From Cenococcum geophilum 1.58 (taxonomy: Eukaryota > Ascomycota > Dothideomycetes > Gloniales > Gloniaceae): 64,000 bases of DNA. The DNA lies in NCBI GenBank assembly GCA_001692895.1, contig KV748185.1, forward strand, positions 1,612,001 to 1,676,000, read 5' to 3'. The translations under genes and the position numbers were made by a program. The notes beneath the pieces were generated by a model, which saw only the letters and a program-made list of their open reading frames with translations, was not told the DNA's origin and did no database searches. This document shows, in pieces, positions 11,718-47,870 of this stretch. The stretch's first letter is position 1; the number at the start of each line of letters is the position of its first letter.

Positions 11718-12006
11718 AACCGTTATATATTACTACGTAAGGGTAAATTACCGTTAGATTGCCGTTAAATTGCGGTAAAGTGCGATTATGTAACTAGAAT
11801 ATTGTTAAGATGTCTAGGAACTTTAACTAACAGTTAAAGCTATCTAATTAGTTGGATTCTTAGATGCTAAGCCCTATTATATAATATTGTTTTAAGCCTT
11901 TAGTAATACCCCCCTTTTCTTCTTTTCTATACTTTAAGTGTCTCTCTTATATATATATAGTAACCACAGCGTCGCCGGAGCTCCGCCTCTATAAAAGGGG
12001 GGGTAG
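11718..12006 (+). other. Element A 3' UTR with degraded palindrome motif and polypurine tract
   Basis: Holds short ATTGC(C/G)GTTAAAT-type repeats (11740-11785) and a diverged copy of a 23-bp palindrome at 11819-11841, followed by ATCTAATTAGTTGGAT. The purine run AAAAGGGGGGG at about 11993-12003 sits just before the 3' LTR and is the likely plus-strand primer. Confidence 0.65.
11819..11841. repeat. Palindrome copy 1 (element A, diverged)
   Basis: Reads AACTTTAACTAACAG then TTAAAGCT; flanked by ATCTAATTAGTTGGAT. See the matching copies at 14813, 32259, 35347 and 46963. Confidence 0.65.
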
Positions 12007-12199
12007 TATTATAGAACCCTACCGCAGGGGCCTCTATAGGAGAGCCCCGTGCTTTTATATATACCTCGCGTATAGCTTATATTAGCTACGCGTAGGTATA
12101 TTACCTCCTTACGCCCTTAACCCTTATAATTGATTGCGCAACGTCTTATAGACTCCTTAAATATATACGCTTTATAGCTACTGCCTCCGTCCTATAACA
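12007..12199 (+). repeat. Element A 3' LTR (193 bp)
   Basis: Same length and layout as 5907-6099, starting TATTATAGAACCC and ending CCTATAACA. The differences from the 5' LTR are mostly CA/TG to TA changes, so they record RIP, not age. TSD CTAAT follows. Confidence 0.92.
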
Positions 12200-12204
12200 C
12201 TAAT
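12200..12204. repeat. Target-site duplication of element A, right copy (CTAAT)
   Basis: Perfect match to 5902-5906. Confidence 0.9.
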
Positions 12205-12480
12205 AGTAATATATTAAAAGATATCTTAATTTATCTCCCTTTAATAGTTAACTAAATAGGTCCTATTTTAAGATTAATAATGCCTTCTCTATAGGCTATT
12301 AGATCTCCTAAAATCGTTACTAATAGGTAAGCATACTCCTTTTTCCTGTATAGTAATCCTATTTTTTTAACTGCTACTAGTAATATATAGTTCCTTATTA
12401 CTCTACTATCTATTAATACTTTAAACTGTTAATCTTGCCACTTAACTTATAGGTTTAGGTATTATCCTTAAATTCTTTTA
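12205..12480 (-). pseudogene. Gypsy G aspartic protease, first part
   Basis: The minus strand reads FKVLIDS.VIRNYIL, the retropepsin active-site region (consensus LIDSGA..NFI; the Gly codon is altered). It continues through a strand-rich segment INLKIGPI and then IKISFNIL. The frame continues across the element A insertion into 5850-5901. Stops are former Gln codons. Confidence 0.78.
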
Positions 12481-14314
12481 AGGGTTTAAGGCTCTACTAC
12501 TAGTTCCCTTTAGTTTTATAAGCCTCTACTTTTCCTAACTATTAGCTGCTTAATCNTATTTATACTTAGTCCACTTTTAGCTAATACTTAATTCGCTTTT
12601 TATCTTTAATATACTATAGATACGTATTCTCTAGGCATTCCTACCACTATTGTCCTTCTAGGTATTTTTCCGTAAGGAATCTTCCTAGCTAAAGTATTAA
12701 GTCTTTTTAGCTTTGCACTTTTACGGGGTGCTAACTATATATATACTTAGCGTTCCTATATTTCGCCTTATCTAGTACCTAATATATTCTTACTAGGTAC
12801 TTCTAGTTTTTATCTTTAAGTACTCTATATATATTATACGCATTATTTATATATATAATCTATGCTAATATATAATATACTTAGTATCTTAGGTTAACTC
12901 TTAGCTCGTTTTTATCCTTAAGTTTAAACCTTCCTTATACTGATTTAAGCGTTGCGACTTTATTTATAGGTATTAAGATTTATATCTTACTTCTCTAGTC
13001 CTTTAATTACTCCTCTAGATCCTTTATTATTATATTTAAGGCTCCTTTAATATAACTTATAGCCTTTTCTATAATCGGGTGATCTTAGATAACTTTTTTA
13101 TCTAGCTATATATAGAAATCTTCCTATTTATTATTATGTTGCTGTCTATACCTCTTTTAGTATAATCCCTTAAGTATATACGGCTTATTTGTAAGGAAGT
13201 ATCTCCTTATTACTATATTGTAATAGCCCTTTATATATCGTTCTTTAAACCTAGTAGAAATCCCTAGATCCTCTTCTTATTCTAGTTTAATAAGCTACTT
13301 AGCTCTTAGTATGCCTATTCTAGGCCTATTAATAATTCTTTATATAGGTGCTTAGTCCCTTATATAACCTAATATACTAGATCTCTTATTTAGTTTCTAA
13401 TCTTGCTATAAGGTAATTCTTACCCCAAACCCCTCTATAATTTCTTTTTTTTCACGCCTTGCAAGTAGATCCTTAAAGTCTTCTTACTTCTTAATCTTGT
13501 TAATAGTCCTTATTTATGTCTTAAAGTCTTAGTTCTATAGGATTCTTAATCCTAAGCTTACTTCTATTTTAAGCTTTACTCCTACCTTAGTCTAACTAGG
13601 CTTAGGTATTCTCGTCTTATCTTAAGAATCTTAAATCTTACTTATTTTATCTTAAAAATTTTATACCTATAGGAAACTCTGTCCTAAGCTCATTTATATA
13701 TCTTTAAACTAAGCTATCGCCCTACTCTATTGGTTTCTGTTTATTATAGGTCCTTAAGTATGCCTTATCTTATCTTAAGAATCTTAGTCGTCTCTTATCT
13801 TGTTTTAAGAATCTTAAGCCTTTAGCCTTTTACCTTTATTAAGTAATAAATTAGCACTAGCAGTTATCTACTTACTTAGTCCCTATAAAACACTCTTCCT
13901 TTTATTTTATAAAGTAATAGATACCGTATCTAATAGTGTTATAATTCCCGTTACTAAACCTTGCTCTATAGCGGTTTTAGTCTCTACTTTTAATATAACT
14001 TTTCCGAGGTTTATACGCTCCTAGTAAGCTGCCTTTATTGCCTTATTATCTGTAAATATTTTGCCTATATTAAACTTATCGTTTATAATATCCGATCTAC
14101 GTAATAGCTTATTGGTTCCTCTATATTTTAAGGATTTTAGCTCCTATAGCTAATAGCTTACGCTATACTTAGCATCTTTATAAATTTAGTATGCGTTATT
14201 ATAATAAAACGCAAAACTCCTAATTAAATATTCTTTTGTTCCTTATAGTACACTATTGTCCCTTTATACGTATATGTCTTCTACTTATTTAGTTCTCTTT
14301 ATTATATAGTAACT
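12481..14314 (-). pseudogene. Gypsy G internal coding segment of unknown function between zinc knuckle and protease
   Basis: On the minus strand a long frame broken only by TAG/TAA can be followed across this stretch. Next to the knuckle (14314 downwards) it reads FAFYYNNAYQIYKDAKY-like sequence (Gln at stop positions), which resembles Cys/His-rich tails found after gag knuckles in fungal elements. Further on comes a helical, charged region (for example KDLEEQLKDQRSKI with restored Gln). I do not recognise a named domain. It is unusually long (about 1.8 kb) for the gag-protease gap. It could be a gag extension or an accessory gag-pol segment. Confidence 0.5.
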
Positions 14315-14319: not shown

Positions 14320-14505
14320 TGTTAGAAATATAGGGTGACTCACCAATAACGACTACTCGAGTAGGGTTATAGTGATATTGGTTAATTCTTATTAATAGGA
14401 ATAAGGAAAGGGGTAAGGAACTTAAGGTTCCTTACCACGCTAGGGCCACGTTAACACGTGACGGCAATATGCTTTATACGACGGCAACTTACCTTATTCC
14501 TAATA
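14320..14505 (-). repeat. Element B 3' LTR (186 bp, left side)
   Basis: Starts TGTTAGAAATATAGG and ends CCTAATA (ancestral CCCGACA). It matches 20343-20528 along its full length. A purine-rich run on the minus strand next to it (complement of about 14506-14525) is the likely polypurine tract. Confidence 0.92.
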
Positions 14506-14860
14506 CTAGCAACTCTTCTTTTTATGGTTGCTATATATATATATACAAACAGACAGTATATAATAATACCAGACAATATATAATAAAACTAGATAATATA
14601 TAACAAAACCAGACAATATATAACAATGCGGCAGTTAGCAGAATTTAGTAAATAACGCGAAGATGGGTGGGCCGCTAAGACGCTAGTAGTAAGCAAGCTA
14701 ATGGCAATTTTCTATGCTGGGCATGGAAAATCCTAATTAGTTGGCAGAAGTCCACACCGCCACCTAAATTAATTAGGCGTAGCGCTTTTGGCAAGGATCT
14801 AACTAATTAGACAACTTTAACCGGCGGTTAAAGTTCTATAAGATCTTAACTTCTCTAAAT
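14506..14860 (-). other. Element B 3' UTR: tandem repeats, palindrome and a motif shared with element I
   Basis: Contains about four degenerate copies of a 20-22-bp unit with core AGACAATATATAA (about 14550-14630). Next is a block containing GAAAATCCTAATTAGT (about 14720-14750), which recurs in Gypsy I near 47080. A perfect 23-bp palindrome at 14813-14835 is preceded by GATCTAACTAATTAGA. No coding potential seen. Confidence 0.7.
14813..14835. repeat. Palindrome copy 2 (Copia B, perfect)
   Basis: Arms AACTTTAACCG and CGGTTAAAGTT around one central base; flanked by GATCTAACTAATTAGA. Confidence 0.85.
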
Positions 14861-17050
14861 TTCCCTCTTAACCTAACCTTTAACTTATATACGTAGAGTA
14901 TTTATATTAATAAACGTCTCTAGTGCCTTGTTTAGGTTTGCCTTTATTATTATATCTACTAGGTTATCTTGGCCATTAATCTATTAGATCTTAAAAAGTT
15001 CTTAACGCTCGTAAAACTGCTAAAGTGCTATAATATTAATTATAAGACGCTTCTCCTTTATAGTACTAAGCTTAACTAAATACTTATAGAGGAAATATAA
15101 GTTGGTGTATATAATTATAGGGATAGCGGAAAGTTTGAGCCGGTCTATAATTATCTTAAGGGTAGTTCCAATTGCAATTGCTATATTAACTCCGCTAACT
15201 ATTCTATATATCTCTAACGCTAAAACGCTTTAAGTGACGCGCTTACTCTTAGTTAAGCTCTAATAAATAAGGTTGCCGTAAATTATAAAGTCATTCTCTC
15301 TAGTAGATTTATTCGCAATAATAATCTTATATCCTAGCTAGGAGCTAAAATCTTTATTGTTTATAAACGATCTATTAACGAATACAAAGAGCTTAGTAGT
15401 AGGAAGGCTAATAGGCACGTAAAGTAGTCCCCTATCGAGATGGTTTATTTGCTAAAAAAGACGCTTATTTAGGGCAAGAACGTTATCCTTAGTTAGTTCC
15501 TAGTATTAAGCGGTAATAAAGAAATTAAAGGAAGCTTTGGGTTAATAGATAGAAGCCATATAAGCTCCGTAAGCGCGTTGCTCTATATATCCTTACTTTA
15601 GAGAATTAACGTTAACAATATTAATCTTCTTGCCTTAATCCTTCTAGCGTAAAGCAATGGAGCCCTTATTTAGGGAGAGGATACATCTATTAAAGAGTAA
15701 TGGTGTTACTAAGTTAAGTCTTTCCTTTGGCTTTACTATAAGATTTGCCTTTACTAGCTCATCTTCTTTAAGAGCTAAGAATTGGTTGTCTCCTAAGATA
15801 ATTATATTGTCTATTTATATGCCGACGATTTTAAATAGAGTTCCCGTAGTTATAATAAGGAAGCAGGGATTAAATATAAAAGTAGTCATTAAAAGCTTCT
15901 CCTTATAGTGCTTGCTGTAGGTAGCCCACTAATAAATTCCTGCCTCTGCGATTTTATATAATGGCTTAAGTACAACTATAATTGTATCCTCGGGATATTA
16001 GTAGCGAATTTACTCTAAAAGGTATGCTAGTATTAAGCGCTAAAGGCGCGTCTCTAATTAGGTATAGGCCTAAGTAATATCTTATAGGTAAACCGCCATC
16101 CTATTCTTTATTAAGGAGGGAGCTAGTATAATAATAACTTATTAACTAGCTCGTTAAATTATAGGGGATTACATAAGGATTACTTCCTTGCTGTTATTAT
16201 TATAACCTTAAATAACTAGCCTTAACTTCTTAAATAGGGTATTAGTAGCTTTGCCTTTAATCTTATTAACTATTCTTAACTTAAATATGCGGACTTTATC
16301 AAACTTAGTAGGGTTATATTTCTTGAATTTAAAGACTCCTCTTATAATAAGACCGTTAATCTCCTACTTATTAGATACTTAAAAAGGAGCTCCTAAAGTT
16401 ATAATACGGCCTTCCTTTTAAAGCTATTTTGCAAGTTTAAAGTTAGCCTTCTCTTTAGCTATTATAAAGGCTATTAATAGTTTATCTCTATTCTTAATAG
16501 CGGTAACGAATTGCTCTTTGAAATTAATAAGATGTTGGCGATTTTGTGATCCCTTTAGGCAACCTCTACCGCGTCGTAGTTGCGGTATATCTACTATAAT
16601 TATATTAGAATCGCCTTCGCCTTCTAAAGCACGTTAATCGTAGTTCTCCTCCGGGGTATCCTCTAGGGCATCCTATAAAGGCTCGGAGCTGTCATCCCTA
16701 TAGTAGGGCTTAATAATAGTTGAGCGGAATTAAGTAGGTCCATAGGGCATTATCCTCCCTTTTTACGCCATACGCGTACCTCCGATTGGAGTGGCAGATT
16801 AAGCATAGTTGAGGTGTTTAGGCCATTTCTTATTCCTAATGCGTTGTTGACCTAGCGCATGGCGTAGAGACGTTGCACCTCCTTTATTGCCTTGCGAATA
16901 GCCTTAGCTTATTGCGTAATAGAGGGAGATAGTAGAGAATTGTTAGTTATTTAAGGGTAGGCACTAAAGACTAGTAATATAGGTACGAGCCCATCTAGGC
17001 TAGCGGTATCGTTAATAGCCTTAACAGCCATCTATAGGATAAGCTCTTTA
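14860..17050 (-). pseudogene. Copia B reverse transcriptase and RNase H
   Basis: RT (about 16560-15600) reads RGVFKFKKYNPTKF, then KIRIFK/RIVNKIKGK-like sequence, then RLVI*GYNN. These are the first blocks of the RVT_2 family (consensus RIF.SR.V.E.K). RNase H (about 15400-14900) reads FVNRSFINNKDFSS*LGYKI, then SKRVT*SVLALEIY, matching the Copia RNase H motif (D.SFA...D.SSQ.G, with V..SEL) with catalytic Asp/Glu positions partly lost. A block KEKRLIINIIALRQ follows. This would make cDNA inside particles. Stops are at former Gln/Trp codons. The plus-strand open frame at 15657-15908 is a shadow of this region. Confidence 0.82.
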
Positions 17051-17960
17051 CTAGCACCCTTTAGTTCTAAAGAAATAATCTTATATACGCGGCGTAATAG
17101 CGTATAATATTATTTTACTTTTCTAATACTATTATATACCTTAACGGGGACTTCCTTAACCTTAATTATTATTGCCTTTACCTATTATTAAAACTCTATA
17201 GATAAGAAGTTCTTTTTTACATTATAAACAATTTAATTAGGGGGTCCTAGGTAGATATTAATCTAGTATAATTAAAGAGTATCCTATACGTTCCTAGCTA
17301 ATATATCTTTTAAAAAGCGTGCGGCTTAGAAGGAGGTTAAAAAGTCAATAACTTAGAGTACTAGCTTGCCGCTAAGATATATAACATCTATAATAATATA
17401 GAAGTTAAAGTTATAGTTATCTTTAAGAGTAAACTTAAATCGGCTAGGGGACTTCTAGTTTATTTAGTAGTAGTAGCAGTACTTTATAAAATATTTAATT
17501 ACCTTAACCTTAACTTTATAACCTACTTACTAAAGGACCCTAAGTAATTAGTAAATAGATAGGTGGTTAAAACAATAGTGTAGTTAACGTAACTCTAACT
17601 TAGTTAGGTAGCTTTAAGTAACACTCCTTTCTAGCTGTTAAAGAAGCAACCAAGGGTAACCCTATTTGCGTATAACAGGCACCTAAATATCTCCCTAGAC
17701 AAGTATATTCTTAAGGTTATTAAGCTTAATACCTAATTTATCTATATTTTAGATGTAGAATAGGAATAGAGTATTTGCGGGGATAATATAGAAAGTAATA
17801 TATCCTAACGGGGTTTGGACCTTAATTATGCTAAGAAAGATTATAGTACCCTTACTAAAGCGAATTATATATTAGCCTGCTATTAATTAGTTAATCTAAA
17901 TAGAGCTATTAAGCTGCTAAAGAGCTTAAATTTAAGGCTCTTCTGCTATAGATACTCCTG
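17051..17960 (-). pseudogene. Copia B GAG-pre-integrase and integrase
   Basis: The minus strand reads LRQLHYCFNHLSIY-like sequence near 17580 (GAG-pre-integrase HHCC zinc finger, consensus LH.RFGH), with Cys/His partly kept. Near 17250 comes NIYLGPPN*IVYN, the integrase core block around the second acidic residue (consensus YLGPPD.I.HDAG.NF), then VPVKVYNSIRKV. Several acidic residues are changed to Asn. This enzyme would insert the cDNA. Confidence 0.78.
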
Positions 17961-20150
17961 CGGCTCTAGTATCTAGTATAATGCTATAAAAGATATTCGC
18001 CGAGTATCTGTTATTAAAGGAGAACGCGGAACTTTTCTTTAGCTTATTAAAGATATTTAACTTTATAATAGAATGGAGCGTAGATTAGTTATTAAGGATA
18101 GCAACGGTTTATATGCCATTTACCTTACTATACTCAGTAAAGTATTAGTTAGGAGAGTAGTCCTCAATTTCCATATCTATAAGGAGCTATTTAGCCTTAT
18201 TAACCTCACCCTTAAGATTTTCTTCGCCTTTATATTGAACTAGGAAGTTTTTAAAGTAGGCTATAGTAACTTTTTAGTTTCTAACGTTTCGTGCGCTCTG
18301 GCGAAACCTATTATATACCTCCTTTTATCTATTAAGAGGGTATCTAGTTAACTAGCAATTTAGCTTCTTATAAACGTAGCACTTCTTCTAATAATTGCTC
18401 TAAAGTGAACCTCTATAAGGACCTCCATGATTGCCTTATAGTTAACATTAATTATACCATTTACCGTATTCCCTACTACATCCACTATATATTTAATCAG
18501 TCTAGTTATAATTATATTAGTCGTCCGGGTTAATTAAGGTAGGTTAGAGTTAGGCGTTAAATTACTATACTTCTTAAGAGCGTAGAGCGGTGCTAATAGA
18601 GGATCTTAATTAAGTATATACTCCTTTATAAGTACTTACAGGGTTAAAGAGAGCGAGATTGCATTCTTTAATACCTTGGCATACGCTAATAACTTAATCG
18701 CGTAGGCTAAGGTCCTCTTAATATAATTTAGATAAACTATACTAAATTATCTAAAGTTAATTAAAGAGCTTTTAAAGATAATTAAGCTAAGAGACACCTA
18801 GGTTCGTAGCAATAATTCTTAAAAAGGTAGTCTCTCTCTACTCTAATATATATTACTGCTTATTCTCTTCTATTTTAAAGTGGCATCTTATCTTATATAT
18901 TATTCAGTTAAAATTATATCCTTTTCCTACCAAACGATTATAATAGAAGGTACTAGCGCGGCCCTTAAGTATAACGGAATAGGCGTTATAATATTAGTTA
19001 GGTTCTAGTCCAACCTTCTAGTAATAGTTGTAGAAGATACGCAGCTTCGAATTAAGGATGTTATATAGTTCCCTACTAAACTTCTTCTCCTAGTCCGTAT
19101 AGAGCTTTATAAGCTCTATAAGCATTTTTAAGGTGCCTTTAAGTAGTATTAAACCACATTAAAATTGCATTAGAGATTAAGGTAGGGATTGCTTTATAGG
19201 CTGCAGTGGAGATATAGGGCTTAATGGAACACGGCGTGGTACCTAATCTTCCTATAGTAGAGTTTAAAGGTTATTAAATCGCGAAGTAAGGGGATCTTGC
19301 GCTTGCTCTTAAGGGGTAGTAGTTAATATTACTAGTTAAATTAGTAGATCCTAGGGAGCTAGAGATAGAGGTAGAAGCGATAGATATAGAACGTGAGAAC
19401 TTATACCTAGAGTAATGGAATTAGAGCGCGTCTCTATTAGCGTATTATTTAGATTCTATTATAAGTTAAGCTTCCTTTTAGTACGTAGTTGGTGCTTAAC
19501 CTTTTATAGAGTCTATTTATACTCTTTTTTTACGTTAATAACTTGCTCCTAGATATTATCTTTAATGGTACCCCCATTTATAGGAATAAATACTCTATTC
19601 TCCTAAAGGAAGTTACGGAAGTCTTATACGACGTCCTTCTTTATAAGAGCCTATATTTCTTTTATCTATCTAATAAAGTCCTCCTTTATATAACACTGTA
19701 GCTTAGTATTATTATATTCGCTATCTATATAGTATACTATGCGGTATACTAAGAATCCGTTTAGGTCCTGTTCCTTAGCGTTTATAGGGTCAATGTCTAT
19801 ATCCTACATCTCCGGGTTAATGCTTTTCTCGTACTTCTTTAGGTAGGTTAACGCTATAATAGGTATAAAATTAACGGGGTGTCGTACGTTAAAGGTAGGT
19901 AGGGTTTTTGGCTTTATAGAATCTCGTAGGTTTGCTATTAAAAGGTAGGTAATTAAGATATTGTTAACGCGTTTTAGACGTTAACTTTAGGACCGTAGGT
20001 TTAGTAATACTTCTAACCTAAAGTACTTAACTAAATCTTCGTATGCGTAGTTATTTAACGCGTTTTAGACGTTAATTTTAGGACCGTAGGTTTAGTAACA
20101 CTTTTAACCTAAAGTACTTAACCAAATCTTTGTAAACGTAGTTGTTTTAT
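17961..20150 (-). pseudogene. Copia B gag, zinc knuckle and protease
   Basis: Minus strand: an N-terminal gag-like region (about 20150-18500), a zinc knuckle at about 18380-18310 reading CYVYKKLNC*LTRYPL (consensus CxxCxxxxCWxxxH, with one Cys and the His now Tyr), and a protease active site at about 17980 reading ILDT.AAGVS (consensus LDTGA). The N-terminal part contains a tandem duplication of about 90 bp (19965-20051 and 20056-20142). Confidence 0.72.
19965..20142. repeat. Tandem duplication of about 90 bp in the gag region of element B
   Basis: Two adjacent copies, each starting TAACGCGTTTTAGACGTTAA and ending CGTAGTT, differ at only a few sites. The duplication falls at the N-terminal coding end of B. 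Confidence 0.85.
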
Positions 20151-20342
20151 ATAATAGACGCAACTTGGTATCTCCTAGTACTTAATAACACTTCTGTTAC
20201 TAGTTTTCTGCAAGTCTAAGGTAGTATAGTATCGCCGGGATCTATTCCATATAAGCGCATATAGTACCCCTATACGAGACTGTCTCTTCTATTTAAAAAC
20301 CTAGCTGCTTTATAGTTAACTATATATTTAACCACTAATTAG

Positions 20343-20528
20343 TATTAGAAATATAGGGTGACTCACTAATAACGACTACTTAAGTAGGGTTATAGTGATA
20401 TTAGTTAATTCTTATTAATAGGAATAAGGAAAGGGGTGAGGAACTTAAGGTTCCTTACCACGCTAGGGCTATGTCGACACGTGACGGCAATATGCTTCAT
20501 GCGACGGCAACTTACCTCATTCCCGACA
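20343..20528 (-). repeat. Element B 5' LTR (186 bp, right side)
   Basis: Starts TATTAGAAATATAGG and ends CCCGACA. It keeps more CA/TG (for example GTGACGGCAATATGCTTCATG) than the 14320-14505 copy. TSD CTAAC follows at 20529-20533. Confidence 0.92.
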
Positions 20529-26530: not shown

Positions 26531-26740
26531 TGTAACGGCGCTATCGCATATTACCTGCCAAATTCTACCATATTCTGCCAACTTATAATTGGCCCGCCTA
26601 AAGCTAGCGCCTTAGCGGCTTACCTTATATATTTGTTTATATCAGTCCTAGCGACCCCTTTTCCTTCTCTTTAGCTTAGTATCTTTGTAATATAGCATTC
26701 TATAAGCTTTGGTTTAGAGGCATTTATATAAGCCGTAATA
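26531..26740 (+). repeat. Element D 5' LTR (210 bp)
   Basis: Starts TGTAACGGCGCTATCGC and ends AAGCCGTAATA; it matches 32499-32708 at full length. It contains ATTCTACCATATTCTGCC near its start. Confidence 0.93.
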
Positions 26741-26955
26741 TTATACTAAGCTTACCCTACTTTGCCTGGGAAGGCCTTAATAATATCCCACCCTAAAGAA
26801 ACTTCGTCTACAACAACGCATTAACGCACTATACTTAGACACTAAAATAACTCTATATTACCTAAGAAGGCCTAGATAATATCCCACCTTATAAGCTAGA
26901 TAGGACTAGACCTGTACCCCTAGAATTAAAACTAAAGTATAGAATACTAACAAAC
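26741..26955 (+). other. Element D leader with a near-duplicate segment
   Basis: No coding sequence. A segment with AAGGCCT..ATAATATCCCACC occurs at about 26773-26794 and again at about 26869-26890, spaced about 96 bp. It lies between LTR and gag, where packaging or translation signals are expected. Confidence 0.6.
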
Positions 26956-26959
26956 CTTA

Positions 26960-28110
26960 GGAAGCTAATAATGGCACCTAAAGTAAGCTTATTTAAGAGA
27001 GTTGCCTTTACCTAAGAGGAACCTAAGATCTAATTAGGATTAGAAATTAAAGATAATAATAACGTTATAGACGTATGTAAGTAGATTCGCGCCTTTATAG
27101 CTAGCTAGGAAGCTAATTATCTTAAAGCGAGAAATATATAAGAGACCTTATAAGAGATTCTAGAAAGCCTTACGGCCCTATAAAATAGCCTAGCTTCCCC
27201 TTTTTAAAGCCCTAGCTAACCTATTTACTCTACTAAATATAATATACTAGGGAGTATAGATATAATAACAAAGCAATTAAAGTCCGTTAAGCTTTTTAAC
27301 CCCCTACTACTATCTAACAGGATAGACCCTACCTTTAAAAATTAGAGGATTTAAGTATAAGGAAAGCTCCGCGTTAACTATAACTATTTCTTTTTTAAAA
27401 AAGCTAAAATGCTCTACCTCTTTAGTTAAACCACTGGGGACGCCTAACGGCACCTTTAAGCCAAGTTTAAGGATAACTCCCCTATCTAATTTATATCTGT
27501 TAATAAGATAATATAGCACCTAGCGGCTATTTACGTTAACCTAAACAAAGTACGGGATACCTATTATAACTATAATCGCCTAATAATAAAACTGAACTAA
27601 CCCTTTACTAAATTCTAGACTTAATTCCTATACCTTATAGGAGAAGGCCAGGTTTCCCTTAAATACTACTAATTGGACCTATATAATAAGCTAACAATCT
27701 AGCTATAAGAAAAGATCGCTATAACCTTAAATAACCTACTAACCCACAAAAAACTCGTAGCTTATTACCTATTATTAGACTTAAAACTAAAGCAGATTAA
27801 CGCCTACCCTAATTAGTAGAAGTAACTCTATAATAATTGGAACTCGCTAGCTATACCTATAGGAGCTAGAGTAGGAAAATAAGTTATAACTACTCTTATA
27901 CTAAAGGCGGTTATAACTACGTACTAGTAAGCCTCGCCCGATAAGTTATATACTATGCTATTAACTAGTATCTGCCGTAATACTCTAATTAACCCTACCT
28001 TGGCTACGTGCTTTAATTATAATAAGTAGGGTTATATTATCTTATCCTGCCCGGAGCTAAAGGATATAGGCAATATTAAGGAGATAGAGAAAGAAGAAAC
28101 GTCCAATAAG
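26960..28110 (+). pseudogene. Element D gag with zinc knuckle
   Basis: The plus-strand frame gives a typical fungal Gypsy gag. Around 27360-27540 it reads GKLRVNYNYF, then KAMLY/KMLYLFS and TTGDA*RHL; around 27590-27700 it reads NQPFTKF and GEGQVSL (with Gln at stops). The knuckle at about 28000-28045 reads CFNYNK*GYIILSC: first and last Cys kept, second Cys and His now Tyr. The minus-strand open frame at 27310-27519 is a shadow. Confidence 0.82.
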
Positions 28111-28199
28111 TTAGGGAAAAAAACCCTAGGGAAAGACTCCCCCTTAGGGTACCCTATTAATCTTAAAGAGATTAATCTTAGTTAGTTAATAGGTAGAAA

Positions 28200-32498: not shown

Positions 32499-32708
32499 TG
32501 TAACGGCGCTATCGCACGTTACCTACCAAATTCTACTATATTCTGCCGACCTATAATTGGCCCGCCTAAAGCTAGCGCCTTAGCGGCTTATCCTATATAT
32601 TTGTTTACATCGGTTCTAGCAACCCCTTTTCCTTCTCTTTAGCTTAGTATCTTCGTAATATAGCATTCTATAAGCTTTAGTTTAAAGGCATTTATACAAG
32701 CCGTAATA
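32499..32708 (+). repeat. Element D 3' LTR (210 bp)
   Basis: Full-length match to 26531-26740, starting TGTAACGGCGC and ending GCCGTAATA; TSD GTTAA follows at 32709-32713. Confidence 0.93.
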
Positions 32709-34990: not shown

Positions 34991-35182
34991 TGTTATAGGA
35001 TGGGGCAGTGGCTACAAGACGTATGTATTCGAGGAGTCTATAAGACGTTACGCGATCGATCGTAAGGGTTAAGGGCGTAAGAAGGTGATATACCTACGCG
35101 TAGCTGACATAAGCTATACGTGAGGTGTACGCAAGAGCACGGGGCTCTCCTATAGAGGCCCCTACGGTGGGGTTCTATAACA
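34991..35182 (-). repeat. A' 3' LTR (192 bp, left side)
   Basis: Starts TGTTATAGGATGGGGCAG and ends GGTTCTATAACA. Inverted relative to 5907-6099 and 12007-12199. The C-rich run at 35184-35192 is the polypurine tract of the minus strand. Confidence 0.93.
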
Positions 35183-35460
35183 CTACCCCCCCTTCTATAG
35201 AGGCGGAGCTCCGGTGACGCTGTGGTTACTATATATATATAGAAGGGACACTTAGGGTATAGAAAAGAAGAAAGGGGGGTATTACTAAAGGCTTAAAACA
35301 ACGTTATATAATAAGGCTTAGCATTTAAGAATCCGACCAATTAGATAACTTTAACCGCNNGTNNAAGTTCCTANACATCTTAANGATATTCCGGTTANNT
35401 AATNNNACTTTACCGCAATCTAACGGCAATCTAACGGCAATTTGCCCCTANGTNGTAATA
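35183..35460 (-). other. A' 3' UTR with palindrome and N patches
   Basis: Mirrors element A's 3' UTR, including the palindrome at 35347-35369 (several N inside) next to a TAATTGG motif, and ATTGCCGTTAGATT-type repeats. N bases cluster at 35359-35455. Confidence 0.65.
35347..35369. repeat. Palindrome copy 4 (A', contains N)
   Basis: AACTTTAACCGC with four N and AAGTT at the far end; flanked by CCAATTAGAT. Better preserved than in element A. Confidence 0.65.
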
Positions 35461-35469
35461 TATAACGGT

Positions 35470-38400
35470 TTAACTCTATAAGGGCTCCTATAGAGGATTA
35501 GGTATAAAATCTCTACTTAGGCCCAGTTTCTGTGGGTTCGCGTAGTAAAAGTCGCTAATTAGATCCTTTGCATTTTTAAAGTCTTCCTATAGTTGCTATT
35601 CTGGCTAATCTATGTTAAATCCTATATATATAGCTCTGTAGTAGAGCCGTTGTCCTCTGCCTTTACTAAAGTATTTAGAGTTAATAATTTATTTAACGGT
35701 CTACTCCTTATAGTTCTCGTCTTTGTTCTTATCTTAAATTAGTACTAGTAGGGGTTTAGGCTATATCTGCCCCAGTAAGGGGTTAGGCTAATAAAGGTAT
35801 AGTAGCTATAGGTAAAATATAGGCTATATCCCACGGGTAGCTAGGGCAGGCGGAAGCTCTAGCTTGTATATAGCTCCCCTATTAATGACTTATTTAGTTA
35901 GGTAGGGGCTAAGGTTCTTATAATTAAGTAACTTTATAGGCCTTTGCGTAGAGATATTGCGTGCATCTAGCTATACCTAGTCGCCAACATATATCTCCAG
36001 TAGTAGCGTTCTATAATAGTCGGCGAAGTAGGCCTACTTTACTTAAGCCCAGGCCATTTCTCCCTTATAGTAGTTAAGTAGATTTTTTATACGGTCTACT
36101 TACTAGTTAGTAAGTAGCATCTTAAGGCGTTTTCTATATAGCAGTTTCTTATTAATAGGTTCTAGTGGTTCTATACCGGATTAGGGGTAATATCCCTTAT
36201 TCACAAAGAATAGGGTAAGTCCTGTAGTAGTTAAGACGTAGTTATTCACTACAAATTTATCTAGTAGGAGGTAATCTACCTAGTTATCTTAACTATAGGC
36301 AACTACCTATTATAGGTACGCTTTTATACTAGCATTAGCGTTTTCTAGTTGCCTAGTAGTTTTATAGTAAAAGGATATAGATATCTTAACGGAGATGCCA
36401 AGGCGTTGGCAGATTCGTCTCTATATATTAGAGCCGAACTATATACCTTAGTTAGACGTAATTAAGTTAGGTAACCTATGTAATCGGTAAATTTTATAAA
36501 GGAAGGCATTAGTAATATTGCTAACGGCTACGCCTTTAGTTAGGACGTAGTGGCGCTCTTTTATAAGTCGGCATATTATTATAAGGATGTTCTTATAGGT
36601 ACGGCCATATCGCTTATAGGGTAGTAGGTTAATAACGAAATCTATAGCGATATCTGCCCATTATTATATGGGTATTAGTAGAGGGTGCAGTAGTCTTTAG
36701 TACTTTATATTAAAGGCCTTAGCGCGCTTATAACTATATCAGGCGCCTATAAAGCATTTAACTAAGTCTATTATTTTAGGCCAGAAGTAATATCGGCTAA
36801 GAAGCTTATAGGTTCCTCTTCTACCTANGTAGCCGCTTAATCGGAGGTTATAGGCCATTTAGATTAGTTGCCGTTATAGATTTTCTAAGTTAGGGATAAA
36901 TAGACGGCCTCTATAATAGAGCCTGTTCTCTTTTACTTCTAAGGCTGCTATATTAATCTAGCCTAAGCTTTAGAGTTTAGTTAGCAGCGTATAGGTGCTA
37001 GCGGTCTTTGCGGTAATAAGTTAATATAGTAATGGGTTAACAGAGGTGTTATATGCCGTAGTAATAAGCTTATTAATTTTAGGAGGTAATTTTAGTTCTA
37101 TAGTGTAGAGCTAAGGTATAGTTAGCTTTATTATAGGTAGTATACCTAAGGCCAAATTCCGTACTTTTAGGATCGTCTATTATTAGAACTGGTTATAGGG
37201 GTTATCTTTAGACTAAGGAAGGTCTTATAAGCGGCGTATTAGGCTATTAGGCTTAGTACCTTATACTCCTAGCCTATATATAATTTTAAAGTTAAAACTA
37301 GAGAGGAACTTATTCTAGCGTGCTTAGCGTTAGTTTAGCTATTTCGTAGTTATAAAGTACTTAAGGTTGCGATAATCCGTAAGGACTTTAGTTGGCTAAT
37401 TAGGTTCTGCTAAGAAGAGTTCCGGTTAAAATTCCTTAAACACTTATATAATTACAAGAAGTTCCTTATTATAGATCTTATAGTTATATTCTTATAGTAT
37501 AAGCTTAGACAAATAGAATACGACTAGGTGGAGGAAACCGTTATTACCTATCTAGGAAAGAACGCCTGCGTTAACGTGGTCTAAGGAGTTAGTCTTAAAA
37601 TAAAGTTGTCGTCCTAGTATAAAGTAAGCTAGGATAGGTGCTTTAGTAAAAGTATCTTTAAGGTCTTAGAACGCCTTCTTATATTTAGGCGTCTAAATAA
37701 AACGTAGATATATTTTTCTTCCTTTCGCGGAAAGGCCCTTCGTTTGTATTATTGCTATAAGTAGTGCTATAACACCCAAAAAGTTATATATAAATTTTTA
37801 ATAAAAGTTAGCGAAACTAAGGAAAGCTTATACGTCTTTAATGCAGTTAGGGGTTTACTATTTAGTAATTATATATACCTTCTTAGGGTCTATATAGACA
37901 CCCTTAGTAGTAATAATTAGTCTAAGGTATTTTACTTCTATAACTAAGAATTCGCACTTCTTTAAATTAATATAAAGTCCTGCGTCCCTAAGGCGCTATA
38001 GGACCTTTTAAACGTGCTTAGTATGTTTAGAAGGGTTATTGCTATAAATAAGTATATCGTCCAGGTACGCAGAGCAGAAGTTATTAAGGTAGTCCTGTAA
38101 GGCGTTATTAATATAGCTTTAGAAGCTGCCTGGGCCGTTATATACGCTAAAAGGCATAATAGTATATTTAAATTGGCTAAAGCGCAATGCAAATGTGGTT
38201 TTCTATTTATTACCTTCTCGTATTTAGAGGTAGTTAAAGGCGGCAATGATATCGAGCTTAGTATAGATTTTGGCTTAGCTAAGCCGCTTAAAAGTCTTAT
38301 GTATAAGCGGTATAGGGTATTAGTTCTTAATTGTAATAGCGTTAAGTCCTCTATAGTTAACGTAGAATTAAATACCTCCTCCTAGCTTCTTAGTAAGGAG

Positions 38401-39400
38401 GATAGGGGCGGCTACTGGGGATATGCTGGGGCGAATAAACCCTTTATTAAGGTGTTTGTTGATATACTTTTTAACAACTAGAAGTTTATCTTTTAATATT
38501 AGGTAGGGTCTCTTATAGGGTAGCGTTTTTCCTTATTTAATATTAATAGCATAGTTATTAGGTTAATATAGGGGGAGTATATTTACGCTCTTTTATAAGC
38601 ACACGTTAATAAAGTTATAGTACCTCTTAGGGAGGAGCTTACGGAGTTCCTCGTTAGTAAGTCCTTTTTTAAGCTTTATAAACTTTTTAAAGTCTAAAGG
38701 TGAAAGTCCGTAGAGTTTTATAGGGGCATTATTTTCTAGGAGGTTAACTATATTTATCCTATTACTATAGAGGACGTAGTCCTATTCTTTATTAAGCTTA
38801 TATAGTTGTAATTAGGAGGCTATAGTAATGGTCCAGCCTTTTCTACGTGCTATGCGGTAGAAGGCCGCGGCACTTATATAGTGGTAGTTAGTTATAGGTA
38901 GAGTAATAAGGGGTTCCTTAGGTTGGTATCCTAGGGAGTAGATAGAGGTAGCTAGGCTATATTCTAAGCAGGTCTCTCTACAGTATTTAGAGTTAAAGGT
39001 TACTTCTCTCTTTTTCTAGTTAATAATGGGGTTGTATTATTCGAGCTAGTTTATTCTAAGGATAATAGGGTAGTTAGTAAGTAGTGTAATATAGGCCCAG
39101 AGTTCTTCCTAGTGCCCATTTATATCTAGGTGGAGTTATACTATATAGGTAATCTTCTATGCGGTATAACTACTATTGGCGAGTTATAGGGCGCGGGCTT
39201 TAGTAAGGGGTAAGGTAGGTAGGTTATAAGTATACACAAATTAGGTATCTATAAATTTATTAATAGCTCTGCAATTAATTATAGAACGGCTTTTATATTA
39301 TTTTTTGGCAGTAGTTCCTATTATAGGTAAAACTATCTATTTCCGTCTATTTATCTTTACTAAGTTATCTATTAAGCAGGCNAATATATAGATCCCCTTA
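35470..39400 (-). pseudogene. A' pol pseudogene
   Basis: Minus-strand counterpart of element A pol: chromodomain (about 35710-35540), integrase (about 36900-35950), RNase H (about 37760-37350), RT (about 38620-37850, with the start YINYRGLNAI-like block near 38350 and the YLDD region near 38060), protease (about 39340-39230). Near 38060 the catalytic box reads YLDDILIYS with both Asp kept, unlike element A (YLDN). The open frames at 37962-38246 and 38173-38385 are shadows. Interrupted by TAG/TAA. Confidence 0.85.
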
Positions 39401-39479
39401 TCGTTAGGGCGTCCTAACCTGCGACTTAGGGCTAGGACTTGGCGTTTTCCGTTTCCGTATCCGACTCTACCGCTATTAC

Positions 39480-40883
39480 TACGTCTTCGTCTTATATAGT
39501 AGTGATATATAGCGACATATTTAGTGTTTAAGGTACTAGGTTAGGTATTAGGCGGCGGCTACTAAACCTAGCTATTAGGTAGTTTAGGCTATAGCTATAA
39601 TAGCCTTCTTAATAATATCTATAGCAACGCTTTAGCTTTTAGAGTAGCTTGCGTTCTTTATCTAGTAGCTTCTACGGGAAGGTTAGTATAAAAAGGTTAA
39701 TATTAGAACCAGTAGTGTTGCTTAGGGTAGTAGGCGTTAGTAGTTTAGTAGGTCCGGAGGGCTTCTATAGGGAGATCTTTAGGTAGGGGTTTGCAGTAGT
39801 AATCTAATTTAGTCGTTGTTTAATCTTCCGTATGGCTGCTACCATATTATAAATATTATTATAGTTATGGCTAGCGGCTGTATAACTAAGGCAATAAGTA
39901 ACTTTTTTAAGGAGATCTTTCTAGTCTTTAGTATTGTCTTAGGCGAGGGCTCTAGTGTATTTTTAGAATTTAATATAGAACTTATTAAATAATTTAGTAG
40001 GGCTTATCTTTAGGGTATGTAGTTTAGCTTGGTTAGTAGCTAGTAGGTTATAGTCGTGGTATATTAGGTTAAGATTATTAAGGACTTCTTAGTAGGACTA
40101 CCACTTCTAGGGGCTATTGGTCTCCTATTAGGTAAAGAGTCTATTAAATAGTATACCCTTTATTTACCCAATAATATAGCTAATCTTAGTGTCTTTTGTA
40201 GGAAAAAGGCAGGCGCTCTAAGTTAGTTTCTCGCGGATTTATATCTTCTAGTGGCTGTATTCTTTACGGTCTCCCTAGAAAACTAGGGGATTAAGGTAAC
40301 GTATATTAGACCTTACGGTAGCAGCTTAAGTTTAGTCGTTATAGCTTTTATTATCGCTTTAGTAGGGGTTCCCGTTAAGTAAGGCTGCTTAGCGCTAACC
40401 CTCTATTAAGCGTTAAGTAGGTAAAGTTGCTAGGGGCGTAGAGACTTAAGTGGCGTTATATGCAGTAGAGAGGTGTCTAGCGTTATTATAAATGTACTCG
40501 TTAAGCTAAGATTATAGGTATTTAATTATGCCTTCTCTTTTAGTAACCGTAGCAATAAGTGCAATCTTAGCCTTCTTTAACTATTGGATGTCGCGTTTAG
40601 ATACGCGGAGGTTATCTTTAGTTTCTTAACGCGTATTATTAGCGAGCGCCTCACGAGCTTATAGGTCTTAGATAATATCGCGATCTTAGATAGCACGCAT
40701 CTCGGCTTATATAAGCTTTAGGTGGTAGTTCTATAGAAGGCGGTAGTATTTGTTAGGTTCTTATGCTACTATTTTTGCGAACGTTTCGGCGTCTTATATT
40801 TCGATTTTAATAGGTAGTAGCCCTTCCGCTTGCTTATCCGTAGTTATATAGTTAATAAAAGATAAGATATTATCGGTGTCCAT
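39480..40883 (-). pseudogene. A' gag pseudogene
   Basis: ATG on the minus strand at 40883 opens MDTDNILSFIN and follows element A gag, with stops at fewer sites near the N-terminus. It continues to the zinc-knuckle region near 39650, where the frame still holds some Cys codons lost in A. The leader upstream is split by the TA element, whose end lies about 20 bp before this ATG. Confidence 0.8.
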
Positions 40884-40924
40884 CTCCTTAGGGGTTAAGG
40901 CTACATCAGCATTTTGTTGGGGTG

Positions 40925-41145
40925 CCAAGATCCTAGAGGCCTCCTGACAGGATTTTGATTGTCCTGGAGGTCCTGGAGGTCCTGACAGGCTCCTGACAGG
41001 CTCCTGGCAGGATTTTGATTTTCCTAATCGTCCTGGTTGTCCTGACAGGCTCCTACCAGGATCTTTGATTTTCTGTCAGGGTCCTGTCAGGTCCTAACAG
41101 GAAACTAGTATTTCCTGATCGTCCTGTCAGGTTCCTGGCAGGATA
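40925..41145. repeat. Left subterminal GTCCTGACAGG-type repeat block
   Basis: Many overlapping copies of CTCCTGACAGG, GTCCTGGAGG and related 9-12-bp units, including self-complementary CCTGACAGG/CCTGTCAGG pairs. A like-oriented block lies at the other end (42510-42690). Confidence 0.88.
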
Positions 41146-41149
41146 CCCC

Positions 41150-41345
41150 TAAGCAACACCCCTCCTAATACCCCCCCCCCAAAAGCGACACCTCTGCACA
41201 CCCTCAAGCAACACCCCCAATGCGACACCCCCCTTATTGCGACCCACCCCCCCCACCTTAGGTGCGCGCGCGCGCGACACATAGTGCTATCGGGCGCGAC
41301 ACACAGTGCTATCGGGTCCCCACTATATTCCCGATAGCCTACACA
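41150..41345. repeat. GC-rich segment with GCGACAC repeats and a (CG)n tract
   Basis: Irregular CAACACCCCC / GCGACACC units, a CGCGCGCGCGCG run at about 41262-41276, then two copies of a unit containing CACAGTGCTATCGGG. CG runs of this kind can adopt Z-DNA; that is a general property, not tested here. Confidence 0.75.
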
Positions 41346-41444
41346 CATGCCTCTGCCAAGTTACCCCCTTATAGCCACCTTATTTTTTACCCTTCCTTAC
41401 ATCCTCCCTACCTTAGGAGGCACTAGAAAACAGCAGCCAGCAAA

Positions 41445-42235
41445 GGACCGTCCGCTAGAACCAGACGACCGTCGCTAGAACCAGACGACCGTCGCCAGAA
41501 CCAGACGGACCGTTGCCAGAACCAGATGACCGTCCCTAGAGCCAGACGACCGTCCTAAAACTAGACGACCGTTACCAGAACTAGACGACGACCTTTCCGA
41601 ACAACCAGCCAGCGAATACCACGAACGATTCAATTGATCGATCGATCGAATTAAACCAGAGAGCTTCGATATCGGCCCCATCACCGAATCGAATCAAGGC
41701 CTCCTAGGGAGGCACCCTAGACGACCACCGTTCGAATGTACAGCTAGCGAACGGCCATAGAGAACGATCTAAATCAATTAGATCCTTCGATCGGGCCAAC
41801 CCCTCCCCCGAATTGAATTGGATACTAACATAGGCAGGCAGGCAGGAGGCAGGTAGGAGAGGACCGTCGCCAGAACCAGAGACCGTCGCCAGAACCNGAC
41901 GACCGTCGNCAGAGCCAGACGGCCGTCGTCAGAGCCAGATGACCGTCGCCAGAGCTAGACGACTGTCGCCAGAGCCAGACGATAATCGTTCGAACGACTA
42001 ACCAGCGAACACCACAATCGATTCAATCGATCAATTAAATCGAACCGGGGCCTCAATATCAGCCCGTTACCGAATCAAATCGAATCAAGGCCTCCTAAGG
42101 AGGCACCCCAGACGACCACCGTTCAAACGTACAGCCAGCGAACGACCATAGAGAGCGATTCGAATCAATACAATCAATTGAATCAAGCAGAACCTTCGAT
42201 CGGGCCGACCTCTCCCCCGAATTACAGATACAGAC
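41445..42235. repeat. Large direct duplication (about 400-bp unit) containing GACCGTCGCCAGAACCA minisatellites
   Basis: Unit 1 (about 41445-41825) and unit 2 (about 41865-42225) share the same order: minisatellite of about 19-20 bp (CCGTCGCCAGAACCAGACGA), an AACCAGCGAA..CACGA segment, GATCGA-rich sequence, AATCAAGGCCTCCTA.GGAGGCACCC, ACGACCACCGTTC, and a TCGATCGGGCC.ACC end. They are separated by AGGCAGGCAGGC-type repeats at 41833-41862. Identity looks about 80-90 percent by eye. Confidence 0.85.
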
Positions 42236-42295
42236 AGGTAGGCATAGACAGGTAGGCACGACAGGCACAGGCAGGCACAGACAGGTAAACACCGC
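42228..42295. repeat. ACAGGCAGGCACAGACAGGTA short tandem repeats
   Basis: Degenerate 8-12-bp units of CAGACAGGTAGG/CAGGCACAGG. They match the AGGCAGG tract at 41833-41862 in kind. Confidence 0.8.
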
Positions 42296-42509
42296 CGATC
42301 GACGATTTGGAGCCTCCGCGAGAGGCTCCTCAGTCGATCGCCCGACGCTCGAGCGATCGTAGAGCTCCATGACAGACACAGGCGGTAGGCAGAAAAGATT
42401 GATTTGGATTATTTAGATTATATATAATTAAATTTTAAATTATATATTTTTTTCACTAGCTGCAAATACTGTTATTATCCTTATTTTTAAATCTAGAAAT
42501 TTTATTATT

Positions 42510-42690
42510 GTCCTGATGGTCCTGATTGTCCTGATTGTCCTGATGGTCCTAGAGGTCCTGGAGGTCCTGGTAGTCCTGGTGGTCCGGGCGACCTCCTGAC
42601 AGGCTCCTGGCAGGATGCCGAGTGTGAGTGTCTCCTGGAGCTCCTGACAGCCCTGACAGGACCTGTCAGGACCTGTCAGTACTGTTAGGA
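42510..42690. repeat. Right subterminal GTCCTGATT/GTCCTGGAG 9-bp repeats and CTGACAGG block
   Basis: About ten tandem 9-bp units of GTCCTGATT then GTCCTGGAGG type, then CTCCTGACAGG and ACCTGTCAGG copies as at 40925-41145. On the minus strand the 9-bp phase reads as a repeated Arg-Thr tripeptide frame (42440-42697), an effect of the repeat. Confidence 0.88.
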
Positions 42691-42952
42691 GGCACAAACA
42701 TTTTGCTAATGTAGGGCTAATAAATTAAATTCTCCTGGGATTAATTGGCGTTGTAGGTTAAGTATAGGTATTAGATTATTCTTTAGGTTTGATATAGTGG
42801 CTAATAAGGAATATTGTCTTACTATTATGGGTTCCTTAGAAGTATAAAGTAAGGTAACTTATAGGCACGCTACTTCTAGCAGCGCCTATAGTATTGCAAA
42901 GACGTAGAATTAGTCGTAGGCTAGGTGTCGGTGGTAAAAAGGCGCAACGTAA

Positions 42953-43144
42953 TGTCATGGGACGGGGCAGTGGCTATAAGATGTATGTATTTGAGGAGTC
43001 TACAAGACGTTGCGCGATTGATCGTAAGGGTCAAGGGCGTAAGGAGGTGATATACCTACGCGTAGCTGATATAAGCTGTACGTGAGGTGTACGCGAGAGC
43101 ACGGGGCTCTCCTATGGAGGCCCCTGCGGTGGGGTTCTGTGACA
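42953..43144 (-). repeat. A' 5' LTR (192 bp, right side)
   Basis: Starts TGTCATGGGACGGGGCAG and ends GGTTCTGTGACA. It is the best preserved LTR of the A family in the window, with TG/CA at sites that are TA in the other three. TSD CGGCC follows at 43145-43149. The plus-strand frame 42894-43085 is not a gene. Confidence 0.93.
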
Positions 43145-45252: not shown

Positions 45253-45439
45253 TGTTACAGTACATGCGGACTGTTAAGGTACGTTATATAAGGTGACTGT
45301 ATATAATTAATAAACGATATCGTGTGAGGATCTATGTAGGAGGTGAGGCGGTATATATATACGTCGCTTAGGGGTTAGGTCTGTGCTCGTGTTATAACAA
45401 CACTAAGTTATAACAATGTGTTAGGTCAGTGCCGTAACA
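45253..45439. repeat. TRIM left LTR (187 bp)
   Basis: Starts TGTTACAGTACATGCGG and ends GTGCCGTAACA; full-length match to 46256-46442. Contains a TATATATATACG box followed by GTTATAACA palindromic units. Confidence 0.9.
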
Positions 45440-46255: not shown

Positions 46256-46442
46256 TATTATAGTACGTGCGGACTATTAAGGTACGTTATACGAGGTAAC
46301 TATATATAATTAATAAACAATATTATATAAGGATCTATATAGGAGGTAAGGCGGTATATATATACGTCGCTTAGGGGTTAGGTCTATGCTCGTGTTATAA
46401 TAATACTAAGTTATAACAATGTATCAGGTCAGTGCCGTGACA
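46256..46442. repeat. TRIM right LTR (187 bp)
   Basis: Starts TATTATAGTACGTGCGG and ends GTGCCGTGACA; differs from the left copy mostly by TA changes. Confidence 0.9.
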
Positions 46443-46571
46443 TATATTACTACGCCTTTAGGACTAATAATATATTCTAGGAACTTAACCTCTTATACGC
46501 TAAACTAGCACTTCTTAAGGTTTATATATAGTTAATATTACTATAACCTACGTAGCACTTTTAGTACGTAG
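46443..46571 (-). pseudogene. Element E' RT fragment, continuation
   Basis: The minus strand matches K at about 58745-58875 (region LRRLRQYQLYINLKKCRF and KFLGYIISPKGVA in K). Ends at the TA(T)AAGGTAAGG start of Gypsy I's LTR. The last five bases CGTAG are the presumed left TSD of I. Confidence 0.78.
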
Positions 46572-46762
46572 TATAAGGTAAGGATATAAATAGGGAGTTT
46601 AATAATAGAATAATAGGTATATTATATAGACAGAGATAAATCCTTAAGGGAAAAGGAGGAGTCTGTGTATAAGGTAGGAAGGGTTTTTTCTAGGTATATG
46701 TAGAGCACGTGCCTTATAGGCGAGTCACCCCTAGGTTGCCCTAGGGTCGCCTATACCTTACA
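46572..46762 (-). repeat. Element I 3' LTR (191 bp)
   Basis: Ends are perfect inverted repeats apart from one RIP change: TATAAGGTA on the left and TACCTTACA on the right. No second copy is in the window. A CCCCCCTTTTT run (46795-46806; purine on the minus strand) lies about 35 bp inside. Confidence 0.78.
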
Positions 46763-47870
46763 GCTATATAACTATCTACTTAGGTTTTACCTAATAATGC
46801 CCCCCTTTTTAAAAAGGGTTGTTCCTAATCCTTTATATACTTAAGCCTTAATAAAACCCCATAAAAATCCTTAGTAAGGAAAAAATTTAAAAGGGAAAAA
46901 GTGTTTTAATTTCGTGTATAGAGAGACGGGTAGTATATATACGCGGCGTGAAAATATTAAGGAACTTTAACCGGCGGTTAAAGTTGTTTAATTGGTTAGA
47001 TTTACCTTACTAAGACTCCCCCACATTTAACTAAGCTAGTAGTAATTTTATATACCCGGTATAGAAAATCCTAATTAGTCTATTTAATAGGTAGAGCTAG
47101 TAGAGCTTAATACTATCGCCTAAATTTAGTAGACTAGAAGTATTCTAAAAGCTTACTTATATAAGTAGGTCGCTAGTACCTTACGGGTTAGTTATAGGTT
47201 ATTTATATATAGCTAGATTTATAGACAGTAAGGCTATATACCTATTAAACCCGCTACTAACCCTACTTTAGCCTTACGCTATACCAGCGTAGCACTATAT
47301 ATACTTCGCGGGTAGGTTATAGGTTACTTATATATAGCCAGATTTAGGATAGGAAGGCTATATACCCATTAAATCCGCCGCTAACCTATACTTTAGCCTT
47401 ACGCGTTATCTATATAGTATATACATAGAATAGTATAAGTTATTAATATAGGTTACCACTAGTGGGTTACTAGTAGGTTATAAACCCCAGTTAAATAGAC
47501 CCTAGTTATAAATAGGCCTATTTTCTAATATATAAGCAATCTGCTTAGCTAGCATAGAGTAATAAACTAGGTTTAGGAAGGGTACTTTCTAAATTAAGCT
47601 TTGTTACCGGTATATACTATAGCCTTACCTATAAGTCACTAGTATCGCCGGGTTATATTAAAGTGTAGCTTATATAGGATATTAATAAATTAAAACTTCA
47701 CCCTATATATATGCCGCAATTCTTATAGCAATCGTTACTTATTCTTTAATCCTTTAGAATATCCTCTACTCCGCTTTAATATAGATTATATTTTAATAGC
47801 GGCGCTTACTTTTCGCCTACGCTTTAGCTATAAGGCTAGGGCATCCTATTTACGGTACTTATCTAGCAGT
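46763..47870 (-). other. Element I 3' UTR with palindrome, shared motif and tandem duplication
   Basis: Perfect 23-bp palindrome at 46963-46985 followed on the plus strand by TTTAATTGGTTAGAT. The motif GAAAATCCTAATTAGT near 47080 is shared with Copia B. A direct duplication of about 120 bp (from about 47185 and 47308) has units containing GGTTATTTATATATAGC..GATTTA and AAGGCTATATACC.ATTAAA. No coding frame seen. Confidence 0.7.
46963..46985. repeat. Palindrome copy 5 (Gypsy I, perfect)
   Basis: Identical in arms to copy 2, flanked by TTTAATTGGTTAGAT. Its flank orientation is opposite to the transcription of element I, unlike the other copies. Confidence 0.85.

Follow-up and report, generated by a model that had tools for sequence, protein, structure and literature searches.

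How do long terminal repeat (LTR) retrotransposons of different families come to carry the same short palindrome, with the same AT-rich block beside it, in their 3′ non-coding regions? This question is raised by a 64,000-nucleotide stretch of contig KV748185.1 (C10:1612001–1676000; hereafter, the window) from the 177.19-Mb, 162-contig genome of the fungus Cenococcum geophilum 1.58, in which an initial annotation made from the sequence alone had noticed a 23-bp palindrome (hereafter, the 23-mer) in several elements. We find that four families of Gypsy elements (A, D, E and I) and a further LTR lineage, B, carry this palindrome in the 3′ non-coding region, within a conserved unit that has, with its immediate flanks, been exchanged between at least two lineages, as one well-supported case indicates. 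The reading that we favour, and hold with about as much confidence as doubt, is that the palindrome forms the centre of a ~58-bp module that acts in cis, a site for a dimeric host protein, which has spread by exchange of 3′ ends.

The palindrome and its carriers

Exact copies of the 23-mer stand at 14813, 32259 and 46963 in the window, compared with none in 100 dinucleotide shuffles, and the whole genome holds 1207 (one for a reversed-pattern control). A genome-wide search allowing up to two mismatches gave 3188 matches (control 1), and a search with a pattern degenerate for repeat-induced point mutation (RIP) gave 3663 (control 1), so the sharing described by the annotation is real and commoner than had been claimed. 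No exact copy was found in prokaryote genomes and viral contigs. Two further window copies had been described as altered: this applies to the copy at 11819, which has four mismatches to the 23-mer, but not to the copy at 35347, which should be considered masked rather than altered, because four Ns inside the 23-mer are its sole difference. The AT-rich block, (A/G)T(C/T)TAATT(A/G)G, adjoins the palindrome in all five window copies, as annotated, and the side of the module on which it stands is always the same. Two copies, those at 14813 and 35347, lie on the minus strand, elements A, A', B, D and I hold one palindrome match each (with up to five mismatches allowed) and all window copies of the module lie outside LTRs.

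Flanking sequences were read at 47 sites: the first 40 of the 1207 exact copies, all on contig C1, the five window copies and two sites found inside the extracted loci. C1 loci were extracted at 10 kb (19 loci), 5.3 kb (L032) or 600 bp (20 loci); selection by the exact 23-mer favours copies that have undergone RIP. Linking of flanks by BLAST gave 10 groups and inspection by eye gave 12 types, with four of the 40 C1 sites (L037, L041, L042 and L049) left without an element assignment. Gypsy reverse transcriptase (RT) domains, of the RVT_1 type, were found in A, D and I and in type E (L021); according to tblastn, these RTs are 39–41% identical among A, D and E and 33–37% identical when A or D is compared with I copies.

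In A, A' and D, the Gypsy RT lies upstream of the module, with the polypurine tract (PPT) and the 3′ LTR downstream. A Gypsy-type PPT (at least nine purines, sought within 340 bp of the palindrome) was present at 31 of the 47 sites: 150–151 bp beyond the palindrome in A (5/5), 201–207 bp in D (7/7), 177–250 bp in E and E2 (6/6), 63 bp in a2 (3/4), 36–37 bp in a1p (3/4) and, on the opposite side of the palindrome, 151–153 bp away in I (7/7). None was seen within this distance at the 14 sites of types a1, B, G, H and J. Because the RT of the window element I is encoded on the opposite strand and its PPT lies 152 bp to the left, the module there also falls in the 3′ untranslated region (UTR), but inverted. 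The earlier statement that the palindrome always lies in the 3′ UTR can thus be kept for A, A' and D, for I with the orientation reversed and for B in the sense that the palindrome stands about 300 bp before the 3′ LTR.

Orientation was counted only where an RT forms part of the element's own homologous body, RT matches elsewhere (for example at L016, L022, L023 and L026) being treated as neighbours and left uncounted. On this count, the module is sense to the coding strand in all nine cases from A, a2, D and E (A, A', D, L021, L027, L030, L031, L032 and L035) and antisense in both clear I copies (window and L033), so a constant orientation holds for the former types and fails for I. In L019, an I copy with homology ending at about 1 kb, a same-strand RT lies further out.

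Extent and mutational history of the module

Agreement among the 12 flank types was scored in a purine/pyrimidine alphabet, which is blind to RIP. Measured from the palindrome, agreement was 1.00 over 0..+33 (the 23-mer is the selection criterion, whereas +23..+33 is independent of selection), 0.87–0.93 over −15..0 and +33..+43, and 0.59–0.69 past these limits, against a null of 0.61. Because agreement drops to the null beyond −15..+43, the conserved unit, as judged from these alignments, is about 58 bp long. The tail of the module is directly attached to the palindrome in 3392 RIP-degenerate matches (1703 + 1689; control 0), a count into which any palindrome tailed at both ends would enter twice and which equals about 93% of palindromes. 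An 18-base probe for the tail alone found 1758 places in the genome (control 0), and 33 of the 35 such places on C1 up to 2.97 Mb adjoin a listed palindrome.

RIP changes solely C to T and G to A. The window is depleted in CpA/TpG and has an excess of TpA throughout, except at about 41–43 kb, a bias that we took as the mark of RIP and that fits a filamentous ascomycete host; the GC content of all 47 flanks is 0.26–0.43. The arms of the palindrome had been thought poor in RIP targets, which might help them to survive. This proposal is contradicted by 44 genome copies (control 0) of the full CG form, AACTTCGACCGNCGGTCGAAGTT, which retain TTCGA...TCGAA on both arms, and by common intermediates, including symmetric ones with six and three copies. 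The inner pre-RIP 17-mer has 46 genome copies (control 0), and in 44 of these the complete 23-mer surrounds it. Among 100 oriented copies, positions 6–7 of the left arm read TA in 75, CG in 10, CA in 10 and TG in 5, while the corresponding right-arm positions read TA in 86, CG in 8, CA in 5 and TG in 1. Given that RIP acts in one direction only, the CG form would be ancestral and the AT-rich palindrome (TTTAA...TTAAA) its product, a direction to which the 44 copies and the frequent intermediates also point. We strongly infer that the pre-RIP form was AACTTCGACCG-N-CGGTCGAAGTT (44 copies) and that AACTTTAACCG is the end product. The arm letters are identical across all flank types save for RIP changes, and the dyad symmetry was perfect before RIP. 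A palindrome bearing CpG can thus be converted by RIP into a perfect, AT-rich palindrome that has seemingly been spared by mutation.

An E-box-like sequence stands about 17–32 bp upstream of the palindrome at some sites: YACGTR, the RIP-degenerate form of CACGTG, occurs within 70 bp upstream at 14 of the 47 sites, mostly at −25 or −32, and downstream at one (for the window, 0.046 would be expected in 70 bp), these copies being related to each other.

Exchange between lineages and possible function

Element B had been annotated as Copia. Of the 40 C1 sites, 13 belong to types a1, a1p and B. Eight of these loci were available at 10 kb: six have more than 4.2 kb in common with window B, L020 has this stretch split into two displaced segments and L016 has 1.2 kb in common. 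Searches of window B on both strands, of L018 on the plus strand and, at E-values up to 10, of the plus strands of L017 and L025 gave no Pfam domain; tblastn with lineage B gave nothing better than E 0.1 among the matches listed. The Copia label is therefore unconfirmed, and lineage B may be non-autonomous. As a survey of Copia elements proper, 150 listed RVT_2 places from 910 candidates were compared with the 44 pre-RIP palindromes, and two (on C81 and C82) were found to be flanked by them, with one palindrome 1.27–1.30 kb downstream of the Copia-type match and one 3.4–3.7 kb upstream. These palindromes (C81:584282 and 589677; C82:262441 and 268165) are 5.4 and 5.7 kb apart, a spacing that would suit LTRs; the tail accompanies one of the four and is missing from the other three. 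At the six RVT_2 places on C1, the nearest listed palindrome is at least 4.7 kb off and none lies within 4.6 kb, although the C1 palindrome list ends at 2.97 Mb and the RVT_2 places at 3.15 and 3.45 Mb were compared with the tail-bearing list only.

The clearest trace of exchange comes from types a2 and a1p, in a comparison of blocks that left out L053 (from type D), E2, G, H and J. The body of a2 is that of a D-like Gypsy element (RT 52–60% identical to D in L027 and L031), and gapped BLAST puts its DNA over −424..−38 (L026) at 72–79% identity with D copies; the body of a1p is that of lineage B. RIP-blind identity between a2 and a1p is 0.97–1.00 over −43..+57, a block of 100 bp, compared with 0.47–0.63, close to chance, just outside. 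In three of four a1p copies, the block leads directly to a PPT of the Gypsy type that lies in the interior for this lineage, and the B-lineage LTR, judged by window B, begins far past it. These identities give good support to the exchange of a sharp-edged 100-bp block between one type with a Gypsy body and one of the B lineage, which bears out the annotation's suggestion of an exchanged module. We suggest that the 3′ end of a Gypsy element was acquired by an element of lineage B, through template switching or gene conversion, this direction of transfer being putative.

Why the module has been kept is less certain. In our favoured reading, it would act as double-stranded DNA, to which a dimeric host protein would bind in a sequence-specific way, because the arm letters and part of the tail are kept in both orientations relative to the transcript. 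The protein may be of the zinc-cluster kind, as suggested by the dyad symmetry and the everted CCG-N-CGG centre, and the module would work as an enhancer-like or chromatin site for its element. Lineages would have acquired it through 3′-end exchange (template switching during reverse transcription, or gene conversion) and retained it because it helped them, a putative benefit; RIP would later have converted most copies to the AT-rich form. The common host factor proposed in the initial annotation is therefore plausible, in that the letters of core and tail are preserved even where the flanks are unrelated, the protein and its effect being putative.

Several observations weigh against this reading. 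The 12 flank types are not independent, since a1, a1p and B share a body, and 16 of the 47 sites have no Gypsy-type PPT within 340 bp. The tail is present in only 21 of the 44 pre-RIP palindromes, and the 23 of 44 without it, compared with about 7% of all RIP-degenerate palindromes, argue against one indivisible unit, although these 23 may sit in a different setting. A complete Gypsy element in the window, at 56091–62709, has no palindrome within five mismatches, so the module is dispensable for some Gypsy elements. A recent passenger block would look conserved too.

That passenger, a functionless block spread with the exchange of 3′ ends whose copies RIP has made alike, is in our judgement unlikely: exchange is well supported for one lineage pair and RIP drives both arms to the same end product, but agreement falls at both sides of −15..+43 across lineages, while the limits of the shared block differ by pair, and the keeping of the same middle despite these differing limits counts against it. 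A role in RNA, with the palindrome as a transcript stem of about 10 bp and a three-base loop serving stability, export, packaging or dimerisation, seems unlikely to us as well. The module lies in the 3′ UTR, the hairpin forms in the minimum-energy structure of five of six folded module stretches, and z-scores for the six are −3.3, −1.9, −2.4, −3.2, −2.8 and −1.1; such folding is not decisive, however, because a perfect palindrome folds whatever its role. Moreover, the stem seems to keep its letters rather than covary (although arms that vary solely by RIP-type changes say little about covariation), the asymmetric tail is kept even though inverted in family I transcripts, and the window has no Rfam match.

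Two further explanations fare worse. The module might be a replication-fork or integration site at which a bound protein stalls forks or steers insertions into element-rich DNA, as with the Sap1 site discussed below. This gains from the precedent of a conserved host-factor site in LTR elements (PMC5371812) and from the location of the carriers among other RIP-worn elements; programmed barriers usually need asymmetric binding (PMC5371812), whereas the core here is symmetric, and we rate the explanation very unlikely. The annotation had also offered a small inserted element. Thousands of copies in several families are what a tiny mobile element inserting into LTR elements might leave, but borders of the module region vary from family pair to family pair, which disfavours a mobile unit with fixed ends; no such ends were seen (target-site duplications (TSDs) at module edges were not systematically searched) and the place of the module is constant within a family. 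We consider this explanation extremely improbable.

Among known systems, the nearest in kind are the RM boxes of plant Sireviruses, palindromic motifs with an inverted CGG-CCG core, of which each element has 8–32, located in LTRs and upstream of the env gene, confined to one Ty1/copia genus and suggested to have a cis-regulatory role (PMC2829016). Like the module, they are dyad-symmetric, non-coding LTR-retrotransposon motifs shared by very different elements, and CGG and CCG occur in both cores, in opposite order; unlike them, the palindrome occurs once per window element, in the 3′ non-coding region, with an everted CCG-N-CGG core, and its carriers are several Gypsy lineages and the domain-less lineage B rather than members of a single genus. 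The Sap1 site, bound by a host DNA-binding factor in the LTRs of Tf1/Tf2 of fission yeast, has polar barrier activity (PMC5371812). It resembles the module as a conserved host-factor site in fungal LTR elements (binding being putative in our case) and differs in lying inside the LTR and being polar, whereas the module has a symmetric core and lies in the 3′ UTR.

The centre of the palindrome recalls CCGHCGG, the zinc-cluster target of Aspergillus PrtT (PMC10781853, PMC8419926), a family viewed as unique to Aspergillus and Penicillium (PMC10781853). An intact CCG-N-CGG core reads CCGCCGG on one strand: the central base is G in 61 and C in 39 of 100 listed copies, so that one strand always has C, in agreement with CCG-H-CGG, and the left CCG is retained in 71 and the right CGG in 83 of the 100. 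This match covers 7 of the 23 bases, however, and PrtT sites lie in host-gene promoters. LTR chimeras made by template switching in Triticeae, in which sequence of two parents is fused in one element (PMC1950507), offer a parallel for two-parent sequence in a single element, although those are large, complex elements and the block here is about 100 bp around one motif. Our literature search, which covered few subscription journals, found no report of the module or of a shared palindrome in fungal or RIP-affected LTR elements.

A wider proposal, which we regard as possible but doubtful, is that the module is a common control part, a dimeric host-factor site that works in either orientation and is traded among Gypsy, domain-less and possibly Copia elements through exchange of 3′ ends, with the bound protein deciding the time or place of their expression, copying or silencing. 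If so, retrotransposons would share control parts across lineages, and one binding protein would provide a handle on thousands of elements.

Features of the window

Coordinates of the carrier elements and module copies are collected in Table 1. Elements A, A', B and D are complete LTR elements, their 5-bp TSDs having been identified by eye. The strand of element B was set from a PPT-like tract, AAAAAGAAGAG, adjoining its left LTR, and element I is homologous to L033.

Table 1. Module-carrying elements and module copies in the window (positions within the 64,000-nucleotide stretch; ends of elements with an LTR pair were set by eye).
Feature	Position	Strand	Remarks
Gypsy LTR element A	5907..12199	+	LTR pair; TSD CTAAT; RT about 8632-9957
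Module copy of Gypsy element A	11804..11861	+	degenerate palindrome 11819-11841 (4 mismatches); module limits −15..+43
LTR element B	14320..20528	-	LTR pair; TSD GTTAG; no Pfam domain found
Module copy of LTR element B	14793..14850	-	exact palindrome 14813-14835
Gypsy LTR element D	26531..32708	+	LTR pair; TSD GTTAA; RT about 29200-30495
Module copy of Gypsy element D	32244..32301	+	exact palindrome 32259-32281
Gypsy LTR element A'	34991..43144	-	LTR pair; TSD CGGCC; RT about 37231-38556
Module copy of Gypsy element A'	35327..35384	-	palindrome 35347-35369 with 4 Ns
Gypsy element I	46570..51561	-	3′ LTR outer end about 46570; reaches at least about 51561; RT about 49745-51088
Polypurine tract of element I	46800..46810	-	152 bp left of palindrome
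Module copy of Gypsy element I	46948..47005	+	exact palindrome 46963-46985; antisense to coding strand

Element A' is longer than element A (8.15 kb compared with 6.29 kb) and contains, at about 40900–42700, a GC-rich stretch free of RIP with tandem repeats of 9 to 61 bp. To the left of element I, two direct 197-bp repeats, 87% identical and 1003 bp apart, span 45243–46442 and interrupt the RT homology of a minus-strand Gypsy element (45258 | 46450); the interval looks like a nested short LTR element of about 1.2 kb. Near the start of the window, at 770–2974 on the minus strand, open fragments resemble, by eye alone, the reverse transcriptase of a non-LTR retrotransposon.

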